Assembly (NCBI GenBank): GCA_022843025.1
Contig: JALHOL010000003.1
Location: forward strand, 186,001 to 250,000
Source: Paracoccaceae bacterium
GTDB taxonomy: Bacteria; Pseudomonadota; Alphaproteobacteria; Rhodobacterales; Rhodobacteraceae
Length of the DNA stretch: 64,000 bases
Direction: 5' to 3'
Shown here: in pieces, positions 56,070 through 58,410 of the stretch
How the letters are laid out: each line of letters begins with the position of its first letter
Position numbering within the stretch: the first letter of the stretch is position 1
Position numbers and translations under genes: made by a program
Notes under the pieces: generated by a model
Seen by the model: only the letters and a program-made list of their open reading frames with translations
Told to the model about the DNA's origin: nothing
The model's database searches: none

Positions 56070-56330
56070 CTGTTCTTCTCCTGCTCAAGGTTTCGGCAAA
56101 CCTCGTTATCTTTGCGGCACTCGGCAAGTCCGAGTTGACCATTTGCTCAGGTTTTCAGCGAAACCCATGAAATTAATGACGTTTTCGTGACGGTCAGCCA
56201 TGCGATTGCTGCATGGCAGCATTGCAGACCCGCGCTATTGTGCAACTGCAGCATATGCCCCATGTTTCCGGTAACAGCGCGACAGAACGTTGTTCAGATA
56301 CGATGGTGTAACAAACTGAGGCTGATCGAA

Positions 56331-56546
56331 ATGGCTTATATCAATTCCTCCCGTGCCGCGTCCTTCTCGCTGGCTGATCGCATCTCGGGCTTTGTGGCCC
56401 TGACGAAAGCGAACCTGGCCCGCCGCGCCGTGTTTAGTCAAACTGTCCGCGAACTCAACACGCTGACGGATCGTGAGCTGGCCGATCTCGGCATCGCCCG
56501 CGTCGACATTCTTTCCGTGGCCCGCGAAGCAGCCTACGGCAAATAA
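56331..56546 (+). CDS. ccaF1: DUF1127 small protein (CcaF1-like)
   Basis: 71 aa, basic. The C-terminal DUF1127 motif is clear: SQTVRELNTLTDRELADLGIARVDILSVAREAAYGK. In R. sphaeroides a DUF1127 protein named CcaF1 is encoded immediately before a set of CCUCCUCCC sRNAs (CcsR), is made under stress and binds RNA. The same order is seen here, with the first hairpin 11 bp after the stop codon. I chose the ATG at 56331 because the domain starts there and GAGG lies upstream. Confidence 0.85.
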   Translation: MAYINSSRAASFSLADRISGFVALTKANLARRAVFSQTVRELNTLTDRELADLGIARVDILSVAREAAYGK

Positions 56547-56556
56547 GTTTCTTGCT

Positions 56557-56624
56557 GAACCCCACCTCCTCCCGGGGTTCTTGGCAAAAGCGGCGGCGCT
56601 TCTCCTCCTCCCTGGCGTCGCCGC
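56557..56624 (+). ncRNA. Cuckoo/CcsR-type RNA unit 1
   Basis: Two hairpins: GAACCCC / GGGGTTC with loop A-CCTCCTCCC (motif 56565-56573), and a GCGGCG... stem (56590-56624) with motif at 56604-56612. Such two-hairpin units with exposed CCUCCUCCC are the hallmark of cuckoo/CcsR RNAs, whose loop can pair with Shine-Dalgarno-like GGAGG in mRNAs. Confidence 0.85.
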
Positions 56625-56675
56625 ACTTTGATCCGGAAGCCGCGCTCGTGCGTAGACTTCCATAACTGATCCGAC

Positions 56676-56744
56676 GTCCCCCTCCTCCTCCCTGGGGACA
56701 TGCGGAAAAGCGGCGGTTCCGCTCCTCCTCCCAGGAACCGCCGC
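56676..56744 (+). ncRNA. Cuckoo/CcsR-type RNA unit 2
   Basis: Hairpin GTCCCC / GGGGAC with motif at 56684-56692, and a perfect 11-bp GCGGCGGTTCC stem (56710-56744) with motif at 56724-56732. Confidence 0.85.
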
Positions 56745-56784
56745 ATCCGAATTCCGGGGCACACCTGCCCCACCGATGTACGAA

Positions 56785-56852
56785 GGGCCCGCTCCTCCTC
56801 CCAGGGCCCGACGGACCAGCGGCGGCCTCTACCTCCTCCCAGAGGTCGCCGC
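56785..56852 (+). ncRNA. Cuckoo/CcsR-type RNA unit 3
   Basis: Hairpin GGGCCC / GGGCCC with motif at 56794-56802, and GCGGCGGCCTCT / AGAGGTCGCCGC (one G-U) with motif at 56832-56840. Units 3-5 repeat with a ~107-bp period and share the lead-in GTACGAAGGGCCCGCT. Confidence 0.87.
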
Positions 56853-56891
56853 GCAAAATTCAGGGGCACACCTGCCCCACCGAAGTACGAA

Positions 56892-56960
56892 GGGCCCGCT
56901 CCTCCTCCCTAGGGCCCATCGGACCAGCGGCGACCTCTACCTCCTCCCAGAGGTCGCCGC
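56892..56960 (+). ncRNA. Cuckoo/CcsR-type RNA unit 4
   Basis: Hairpin GGGCCC / GGGCCC with motif at 56901-56909, and a perfect 12-bp stem GCGGCGACCTCT (56927-56960) with motif at 56940-56948. Nearly identical to unit 3. The linker carries GGGGCA-CACC-TGCCCC, a third small hairpin. Confidence 0.87.
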
Positions 56961-56999
56961 GCAAATTCAGGGGTTAAGAAACCCTTAACGGCGTACGAA

Positions 57000-57065
57000 G
57001 GGCCCGCTCCTCCTCCCAGGGCCCGACGCACCAGCTGCGACCTCACCTCCTCCCGGGGTCGCCGC
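57000..57065 (+). ncRNA. Cuckoo/CcsR-type RNA unit 5
   Basis: Hairpin GGGCCC / GGGCCC with motif at 57009-57017, and GCGACC / GGTCGC with motif at 57046-57054. The preceding linker hairpin is changed to an AT-rich GGGTTAAG / ACCCTTAAC arrangement. Confidence 0.83.
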
Positions 57066-57077
57066 ACCCCATTCGCG

Positions 57078-57139
57078 CCTGGCCTCTCCTCCTCCCTGGC
57101 CGGGTCGAACCTGCGGTCGGCCTCTCCTCCTCCCTGGCC
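57078..57139 (+). ncRNA. Cuckoo/CcsR-type RNA unit 6
   Basis: Hairpin CCTGGCC / GGCCGGG (one G-U) with motif at 57088-57096, and GGCC / GGCC with motif at 57126-57134. The two hairpins share the loop CTCTCCTCCTCCCT and look like a recent internal duplication. Confidence 0.78.
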
Positions 57140-57153
57140 GGACCGTCCGACAG

Positions 57154-57193
57154 CGGCGGCGCCCTCCTCCCTCGGGTGCCGCCGTTTTCATTT
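57154..57193 (+). terminator. Terminator of the hairpin-RNA array, itself bearing CCTCCTCCC
   Basis: CGGCGGCGCCC (57154-57164) pairs with GGGTGCCGCCG (57174-57184) and is followed by TTTTCATTT. The motif CCTCCTCCC (57163-57171) spans the end of the left arm and the loop, making it the 13th copy in the array. Confidence 0.85.
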
Positions 57194-57267: not shown

Positions 57268-58410
57268 ATGCGCCCTTCCCTTCTTTCCGCCGCCTTCGTC
57301 GCCGCCCTTGTGGGCTATGGCTCCACCATCGCGCTGGTCCTCGCCGCCGCTGAGGCGCTCGGGGCAAGCCCGCTTGAGACCGCAAGCTGGGTCATGGCGA
57401 TCTGCTTCGCCAAAGCCGCAGGCAGCGCCCTTCTCTCCACCTTGCACCGCGTTCCGGTCGTGCTGGCCTGGTCCACCCCTGGCGCGGCGCTCATTGCCGC
57501 ATCAGCGGGCTACACCATGGCCGAGGGCGTGGCCGCCTTCCTGCTCGCGGGTCTGTTGATCGCAGCGACTGGCCTGATCAAGCCGCTGGGCGCGATCGTG
57601 GCCCGCATCCCCGATGGCATCGCCGCCGCCATGCTGGCGGGTGTCTTGCTCCCATTCGTCCTGAAAGGCGCCAGCGCGCTTGAGGCCGCGCCCCTGCTCG
57701 TCGCCCCGATGGTCGGCCTATTCGCCCTCGTCCGGCTCAAGAACCCCGCAGTCGCCGTGCTTGCTGCCCTTGCCGCAGGCCTCGCCACAGCCTTCCTGAG
57801 TGGAACCACCACCCTGCCGCCCCTGCCACCCCTGCCGCCGACACCCGTGCTGATCTGGCCCGAATGGCACTGGTCCGCCCTAATCGGCCTTGGCTTGCCG
57901 CTTTATCTGGTGACTATGGCCTCGCAGAACCTGCCGGGCTTTGCCACCATGCGCGCAGCGGGGTATGAGCCGCCCGTCGCCTCGGCCCTGACGGTGACAG
58001 GCGGCATCTCGGCCGTCGCCGCCTTGTTCGGCGCGCATACGGTGAACATGGCCGCCATCACCGCCGCCATCTGCATGGGCGACGATGTCCACCCTGACCG
58101 CAGCCAGCGCTGGAAGGTGGGGCTTGCCTATGCGGGTGTCTGGGTGATGCTGGGACTGACCGGTCCGGTCGTCATTGCCATCCTGAACGCCTTGCCCCCC
58201 GCCCTGATGACCGCCCTTGTGGCGCTGGCCTTGCTCGGCCCGCTCATGGGCGCGCTGACCGGGGCCTTCGCCACACCAGACCAGCGCTTCGCCGCCACGA
58301 TCACGCTGGCCGTCACTGGCGCTGGCGTGGCCTTCGCAGGCATCGGCGCGGCCTTCTGGGGGCTCTTGGCGGGGCTTGCCATCTGGGGGCTGGACCGCGC
58401 CGCGAGGTAG
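57268..58410 (+). CDS. BenE-family benzoate/H+ symporter-like transporter
   Basis: 380 aa, 10-12 TM segments. It follows the BenE pattern: SAAFVAALVGYGSTIALVLAAAEALGASPLETASWVMAICFAKAAGSALLSTLHRVPVVLAWSTPGAALIA, MLAGVLLPFVLKGA, LPLYLVTMASQNLPGFATMRAAGYEPPVASALTVTGGISAVAALFGAHTVNMAAITAAICMG. No aromatic-catabolism genes are adjacent, so the substrate is uncertain. Confidence 0.9.
   Translation: MRPSLLSAAFVAALVGYGSTIALVLAAAEALGASPLETASWVMAICFAKAAGSALLSTLHRVPVVLAWSTPGAALIAASAGYTMAEGVAAFLLAGLLIAATGLIKPLGAIVARIPDGIAAAMLAGVLLPFVLKGASALEAAPLLVAPMVGLFALVRLKNPAVAVLAALAAGLATAFLSGTTTLPPLPPLPPTPVLIWPEWHWSALIGLGLPLYLVTMASQNLPGFATMRAAGYEPPVASALTVTGGISAVAALFGAHTVNMAAITAAICMGDDVHPDRSQRWKVGLAYAGVWVMLGLTGPVVIAILNALPPALMTALVALALLGPLMGALTGAFATPDQRFAATITLAVTGAGVAFAGIGAAFWGLLAGLAIWGLDRAAR

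Follow-up and report, generated by a model that had tools for sequence, protein, structure and literature searches.

A variable-length array of cuckoo/CcsR-type hairpins behind a DUF1127 gene in Rhodobacteraceae, with a candidate VtlR/LsrB-type box in its promoter

We analysed a 64,000-nucleotide stretch of DNA from a Paracoccaceae bacterium (hereafter, the window) and found that it contains a CIN1/cuckoo/CcsR locus, a kind of locus that is already known: a short DUF1127 gene is followed, from position 56547, by a CcsR-like RNA, and the hairpins behind the gene carry CCUCCUCCC in their loops on stems of variable sequence. We consider it likely that this is an operon under stress control from which many redundant anti-Shine-Dalgarno RNAs are released, with a VtlR/LsrB-type regulator as part of its control. 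The cuckoo concept appears in PMC10253847, which cites Reinkensmeier 2015 for it and also describes four CcsR RNAs of R. sphaeroides that are co-transcribed with the DUF1127 gene ccaF1.

The DUF1127 gene of the window (56331-56546, + strand, 71 aa; PF06568, 42.2 bits, E 6.8e-11) is ccaF1-like and would be the first gene of the operon. An earlier note on this DNA had reported 13 exact copies of CCTCCTCCC behind it, and we found all 13 at precisely the same starts (56565, 56604, 56684, 56724, 56794, 56832, 56901, 56940, 57009, 57046, 57088, 57126 and 57163), every one on the + strand. The motif is absent from the rest of the 64 kb window (100 shuffles gave a mean of 1.59 and at most 5). In the whole genome there are 39 copies (28 on the forward strand, 11 on the reverse; 20 and 10 for the reversed control), and only the 13 of the array lie within 200 bases of each other, making it the sole cluster; all 8 of the genome's motif pairs with 18-48 bases between them are likewise inside the array. 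The array is bounded by the DUF1127 stop codon and a BenE-like transporter gene at 57268, and an Mrp/ApbC-like gene (named from its Pfam domains) lies on the other flank in the opposite direction. Dispersed hairpin repeats of the REP type are present in many copies across a genome. The array forms one cluster only, and a genomic repeat of the dispersed kind is ruled out.

The Rfam matches, a comparison of the units and the predicted fold all support the proposed layout of six two-hairpin units and a terminator that itself bears the motif. Unit 1 (CcsR1; 56547-56629, + strand, as are all features below) has two motif hairpins, begins one base past the stop codon and passes the covariance-model check that had been set for the region, with 95.7 bits against an RF02791 gathering score of 65.3. 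Two motif hairpins also make up unit 2 (56668-56749, 52.0 bits), unit 3 (56776-56857, 36.5 bits), unit 4 (56882-56965, 38.7 bits) and unit 5 (56993-57070, 25.3 bits), the fold adding to the RF02791 score for units 2 and 3. Together with a match of 27.1 bits over 57107-57190, which covers the last motif hairpin and the terminator, these are five further CcsR1 matches, all below gathering (25.3-52.0 bits, E 1.5e-11 to 1.2e-3). Unit 6 (57071-57148, motifs at 57088 and 57126), identified from the Rfam matches and the fold, has two motif hairpins and runs on to the terminator with no wide spacer. The fold places the terminator-like hairpin at 57152-57186, where the 13th motif takes up loop and adjoining bases and a T-rich stretch comes next. 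This hairpin was absent from the output of a simple terminator scan that allows loops of up to 8; the scan's single site lies over a spacer hairpin, on the opposite strand.

Two features had no place in the earlier note, namely the conserved promoter discussed below and the plain hairpins present in all four wide spacers. By spacer folding, these motif-less hairpins lie at 56635-56661, 56756-56771, 56863-56878 and 56969-56986; the repeat in the window consists of two motif hairpins and one plain hairpin, with a period of 107-108 for units 3-5. In the 17 arrays of the genus, all 54 wide spacers (motif-to-motif distance 60-85) fold to at least 4 pairs at -2 kcal or better and hold no motif. Their hairpins have a mean energy of -12.0 kcal, compared with -6.9 (sd 3.4) for shuffles, and many single spacers are not beyond chance, since no more than 37% lie under the fifth percentile of the shuffles. 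The A+U content of linkers is not clearly higher between units (0.40) than within them (0.38); hence, no RNase E site is visible in them and no cleavage site is claimed.

In a partition-function fold of 56547-57190, 12 of the 13 motifs are fully open (mean unpaired probability 1.00) in hairpin loops on GC stems, in agreement with the earlier note, and the terminator motif has an unpaired probability of 0.78, part of it being in the stem. The mean over all 13 is 0.98. When the flanks are shuffled and the motifs kept, it falls to 0.64 over 60 foldings (sd 0.04, at most 0.71), and the fold energy changes from -313.8 to -247.1 (sd 7.3). The same holds for 27 arrays, where 300 of 315 motifs, each folded with 18 bases on either side, are in a hairpin loop (shuffled flanks, 262 of 1575).

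The stems of the unit's second hairpin covary, while the loops stay constant. For this hairpin, the compensatory changes claimed between copies are real: 62 aligned units out of the 77 two-hairpin units of the genus (59 distinct rows) contain 87 cells with changes on both sides against 17.8 in shuffles, a figure that is favoured by the omission of last units, as the 15 units left out before the count comprised 5 near-duplicates and 10 last units, which have divergent, poorly alignable stems. None of 500 shuffles reaches 87. Of the cells, 99.2% are paired, changes on both sides occur at 8 of the 11 pairs (59 distinct rows), and slid versions of the alignment score 0.05-0.13 against 0.42. RNAalifold misplaced the first hairpin, whose register shifts in the alignment, and our claim of covariation is therefore limited to the second. 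The array might also be a genomic repeat with no regulatory role, whether REP-like, another hairpin repeat or a low-complexity tract, and the high identity of its tandem units would agree with this. However, the single genomic cluster, the covarying stems around constant loops, the constant place behind a DUF1127 gene and the CcsR1 match have already largely refuted such a reading, to which we give almost no credence.

The window also has four matches to the ar14 model (RF02344) along the array, of 41.9-49.8 bits, and is not a member of this family, since even the best is below the cut-off of 58.8. In one of these matches (41.9 bits over 57068-57190), unit 6 and the terminator resemble the three-hairpin ar14 RNA. 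An Rfam scan of 15 array loci showed that the five genus loci all pass CcsR1, once each, whereas two of the ten loci from other genera pass ar14 (L163 with 74.4 and 63.8 bits, L159 with 60.6 bits) and the remaining eight reach neither cut-off; outside the genus, most arrays thus fall beyond both Rfam models. A DUF1127 gene was found upstream of all nine large arrays tested by Pfam (the tenth, of G063, was not recovered in the ORF scan). As DUF1127-linked arrays can pass either model, the CcsR1 and ar14 families meet in one kind of locus, in line with the cuckoo concept.

Like the CcsR1-4/ccaF1 locus of R. sphaeroides (CIN1, RF02791), the window has a DUF1127 gene, then two-hairpin RNAs with CCUCCUCCC loops, and a predicted RpoH-type promoter. 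As had been proposed, its array is the larger of the two, because six units and a motif-bearing terminator stand against the four CcsR RNAs described for R. sphaeroides (PMC10253847). Set beside CcsR1-4 by description rather than by sequence, units 2-6 below the cut-off and the motif-less spacer hairpins are further features of the window. With ar14/NfeR1 of S. meliloti it shares the same nine loop bases and, in its candidate box, an LsrB-type site at a similar upstream distance, whereas NfeR1 stands alone and has a promoter of the sigma-70 type, as described in PMC10746234.

We made the comparison of unit number across Rhodobacteraceae that the earlier note had recommended. In the genus, 17 of 19 genomes have motif pairs, in arrays of 6-15 motifs, some of these counts being limited by contig ends (certainly that of G013, whose array continues at the start of another contig). 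In the family, 227 of 296 genomes have at least one close motif pair; outside it, a pair occurs in 9 of 189 genomes of the class (a set of 192, three of which are family members), four of these also with control matches. Read off the table, the window's 8 pairs are exceeded in 14 family genomes, among them G294, for which the control itself gave 8. Because pair counts understate arrays with wide spacers, the motifs of large arrays were counted directly. This was done in ten of the 14 pair-rich genomes, leaving out G099, G212, G225 and G294, and gave 9 to 26 motifs, the 9 being those of G052, where the pairs are scattered over contigs. The longest array has 26 motifs in 1171 bp (G163), and a Tropicimonas sp. 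locus has 14 motifs with a period of ~110 bases and three motifs per unit (L074). All loci counted have between 2 and 26 exact motifs, and 9 of the 27 counted arrays, which are not a random sample, exceed 13. Hence, the window's array is long but holds no record, as other genera have several longer ones, with up to 26 motifs.

Some sequences stand apart from these counts. A 7-motif array with a DUF1127 gene 60% identical to that of the window is found in CP059262.1 (L052), which is titled Exiguobacterium profundum; this title is most likely wrong and the genome one of Rhodobacteraceae. Contigs C32 and C34 of G016 consist of C/T-rich simple repeats full of CCTCCTCCC; the reversed control of this genome is also high (14), and the two contigs look foreign to the assembly or of low complexity. 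G052 has similar CCTCCTCCC hairpin pairs beyond its array, on C16, C17 and C62, two of which are identical; these are possibly a dispersed or plasmid-borne copy. Elsewhere in the window's own genome (L002:1490-1530; C1:263712), a lone CCTCCTCCC lies in the loop of a strong hairpin of 11 pairs, just behind a gene that looks like one for an ammonium transporter, and this hairpin is possibly a single-motif relative with a nitrogen link.

With regard to unit turnover, the near-identity reported for units 3-5 was overstated, given an identity of 89% between units 3 and 4 and of 78% between units 3 and 5. The recent amplification that was read from these units is better evidenced by a genome of the same species, G011, which has one extra unit (~108 bases), 15 motifs against the 13 of the window, and units 3-5 at 97-98% identity to their nearest sister unit. 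In G016, three interior units are 95-99% identical. Over the 17 genus arrays, the mean identity is 92% for unit 1, 76% for unit 2 and 61% for the last units, and the 27 interior units, which are not one-to-one counterparts, average 73% among themselves. The nearest unit lies in the same array for 8 of the 27 interior units, compared to none of 17 first units, one of 17 second units and one of 17 last units. This closeness of interior units to sisters in their own array counts as support, not proof, and the picture it suggests is one of a conserved first unit and of middle units that would be gained and lost.

The promoter was aligned for 25 of the 27 loci (G052 and G006 have no recognised start), and a conserved block lies 76-131 bases upstream of the DUF1127 start in the window. 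From the alignment, a putative RpoH-type promoter is placed at 56238-56265 (+ strand), with TTG at 56238-56240 and CCCCATGT at 56258-56265. Setting TTG at -36 predicts a start site at 56274, and C-14, A-12 and T-9 then fit RpoHI/RpoHII features described in PMC3441632, whereas the C at -13 and the A at -37 depart from them. A scan for sigma-70 promoters gave no hit.

At 56210-56224 (+ strand) there is a candidate VtlR/LsrB-type LysR box, TGCATGGCAGCATTG, with 1 mismatch of 15 to the reverse complement of CAATGCAGCCATGCA, the Brucella VtlR motif as given in PMC12595884. An ATGC-N7-GCAT element (56200-56214, + strand) lies just upstream of the box and overlaps it. We fetched 80 DUF1127 loci and used 79, one being too short upstream. 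The box, with at most 3 mismatches and in fixed orientation, precedes the DUF1127 gene in all 32 array-bearing loci (two or more motifs) and in 9 of 47 array-lacking ones, and it occurs in none of 1313 background segments of 330 bases, the best of which has 4 mismatches. Among the 32 there are 20 loci with 1 mismatch, 8 with 2 and 4 with 3, and these are not independent events, since the array loci share ancestry. A second, overlapping set has the box in 26 of 27 arrays, the exception being G052 with 5 mismatches. In the window's genome, TGCATGGCNGCATTG occurs exactly only at the array promoter.

The box is at -64..-50 from the predicted start; for comparison, the LsrB site of nfeR1, which LsrB activates, is given at -72..-60 and elsewhere at -72..-57 (PMC10746234). 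In Brucella, VtlR is described as a positive regulator of three DUF1127 genes and of the sRNA AbcR2 (PMC12595884). The Rhizobiales-type neighbourhood, in which the regulator gene adjoins trxB, was found in 7 of 12 genomes reached via other loci; the window's genome has no LysR gene adjoining trxB, so trxB-adjacent LysR proteins of other genomes were used as a profile (six proteins, three of them nearly identical; a seventh, whose frame ran into another ORF, was omitted). One protein with LysR domains, G000:C6:34252-35112, stands out at 353 bits, the next LysR protein having 157, and its VtlR identity is therefore taken from the profile search by itself. Ten array-bearing Rhodobacteraceae genomes each have one clear relative (332-356 bits), with the next best at 173 at most. 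In summary, the window resembles the Rhizobiales VtlR/LsrB regulon in having a near-identical Brucella VtlR box before a DUF1127 gene with anti-Shine-Dalgarno RNAs and a clear relative of the regulator in its genome, but AbcR2 and the DUF1127 genes are described as separate targets in Brucella (PMC12595884), while sRNAs and DUF1127 gene share one locus here. From these sequence comparisons, we infer that a VtlR/LsrB-type LysR regulator probably activates the array operon. In the titles and passages of the open literature that were covered, a scope outside which Grutzner 2021, Billenkamp 2015 and Reinkensmeier 2015 fall, we found nothing on variable length or on a VtlR-type box at these loci, and absence from print is not claimed.

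Four VtlR-type boxes with one mismatch lie elsewhere in the window's genome (G000:C2:177124, C5:52469, C6:61280 and C9:65614; loci L225-L228) and are candidate further targets. The ATGC-N7-GCAT element also occurs in 23 of the 47 array-lacking loci, where it is perhaps another LysR-type operator. Four array-lacking DUF1127 loci from Rhizobiales and other alphaproteobacterial MAGs (L079, L080, L082 and L089) have in common an upstream ATGCTAATTTTGCAT or a one-base variant of it.

The same promoter bases can be read in another way, with the PHB-sensing regulator PhaR, and not VtlR/LsrB, binding the conserved dyad, in which case the array would answer to carbon storage. Overlapping the VtlR-type box, CTGCATGGCAG (56209-56219, + strand) fits the R. 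sphaeroides PhaR site CTGCNNNGCAG reported in PMC12542648; PhaR is also described as a repressor of the sRNA MmgR in S. meliloti. In the window's genome, CTGCNNNGCAGCA is enriched (33 against 4 for the reversed pattern), and the full palindrome TGCTGCNNNGCAGCA occurs six times in a listing read by hand, once at the array promoter and once at a phasin-like gene. However, 21 of the 32 array-bearing loci have a PhaR-type site and 11 do not, compared to 30 of 32 with ATGC-N7-GCAT and 32 of 32 with the VtlR box, and at the third spacer position the 25 aligned array promoters carry a purine, in contrast to the pyrimidine described for the PhaR motif of S. meliloti. At the other TGCTGCNNNGCAGCA sites (L190, L192, L193 and L194), no PHB neighbours are recognisable by eye. 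Control by PhaR appears unlikely to us, and a VtlR/LsrB-type regulator is the preferred reading of the box.

Two observations on PhaR-type sequences may be added. In the window's genome, CTGCACCGCAG and CTGCAGTGCAG lie at the start of the phasin-like gene (L191:2428-2473; C3:378927-378972), which adjoins a PHB-synthase-like gene (both named by eye), and one of the two sites extends to CTGCNNNGCAGCATTGC, as at the array promoter. In the window, the -35 region ATTGTGCAACTGCAGCAT (56237-56254) resembles CAATTGTGCACCGCAGCATTA, the PhaR site described for mmgR of S. meliloti, with one extra base in the middle.

To look at possible targets, we used a sample of 464 kb (the window and 400 kb more), in which start positions are approximate because ORFs were chosen by length only. 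An uninterrupted complement to 6 or more bases of the motif lies at -20..-3 of 13 of 237 ATG starts, compared to 0 of 228 and 1 of 238 for the control windows; in the same test, the 16S tail gave 23 against controls of 10 and 8. The two best sampled leaders, which contain GGGAGGAG, belong to genes for a TctC-type transporter receptor and an aldehyde dehydrogenase. As only 5.5% of the sampled starts match with at least 6 bases, the array is not a blanket repressor; by extrapolation, this allows for a few hundred targets genome-wide, not all genes.

Many identical open loops on one transcript, up to 26, also look like titration, and the array could be a multi-site decoy of CsrB/RsmZ-like layout that titrates a C/U-binding RNA protein, with no mRNA pairing. 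In the ten large arrays of other genera, separate RNAs are not delimited by wide spacers, since only 4 of 143 distances exceed 55 bases, which fits such a sponge. CsrB/RsmZ sponges carry GGA motifs in their loops, and the loops of the array hold CCUCCUCCC. CcaF1, described as an RNA-binding protein (PMC10253847), would perhaps be the protein titrated. However, the loop matches ribosome-binding sites in the leader test above, and NfeR1 with mutated motifs loses mRNA silencing: its three CCUCCUCCC motifs are called redundant, and the triple mutant no longer silences ntrB (PMC10746234). We consider a protein sponge improbable.

For the preferred reading, a stress-controlled operon of anti-Shine-Dalgarno RNAs, the following course of events can be proposed. 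The predicted RpoH-type stress promoter and, probably, a VtlR/LsrB-type LysR activator would start a single transcript, which we infer to carry the CcaF1-like DUF1127 protein and then the tandem cuckoo/CcsR RNAs. CcaF1 and RNase E are described as acting in CcsR maturation (PMC10253847; PMC8625941), and by analogy with these relatives the DUF1127 protein and RNase E would cut the array into two-hairpin RNAs. Again as in relatives, the CCUCCUCCC loops would pair with the purine-rich ribosome-binding sites (GGAGG/GGGAGG) of many mRNAs, which may lower the translation and the stability of these targets under stress. Since all loops are alike, the unit number would set the dose of anti-Shine-Dalgarno loops per transcript, an idea based on the variation in unit number, and this number would shift through the gain or loss of interior units.

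RNAs with CCUCCUCCC loops are known from two sides, as CcsR in Rhodobacter and as ar14/NfeR1 in Rhizobiales, and the loci compared here link the two by RNA family and by a common kind of regulator box. This leads to a testable question: what, besides RpoH, switches on these RNAs? In a broader and tentative proposal, which we hold to be possible but doubtful, a redox-type VtlR/LsrB regulator and an RpoH promoter would jointly fire, in Rhodobacteraceae, one operon that joins an RNA-binding DUF1127 protein to an ample and redundant stock of anti-Shine-Dalgarno RNAs, its strength being set by array length via repeated independent amplification, and uniformly spaced arrays may each act as one long multivalent mimic of the 16S anti-Shine-Dalgarno tail and sequester, in bulk, the leaders of mRNAs with strong initiation. 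If this were true, Rhodobacteraceae would unite what Rhizobiales keep apart, and the amplification of units would be independent in different genera and even within a species. The difference in unit number within a species provides natural dose variants, with which the effect of redundant anti-Shine-Dalgarno loops can be asked.
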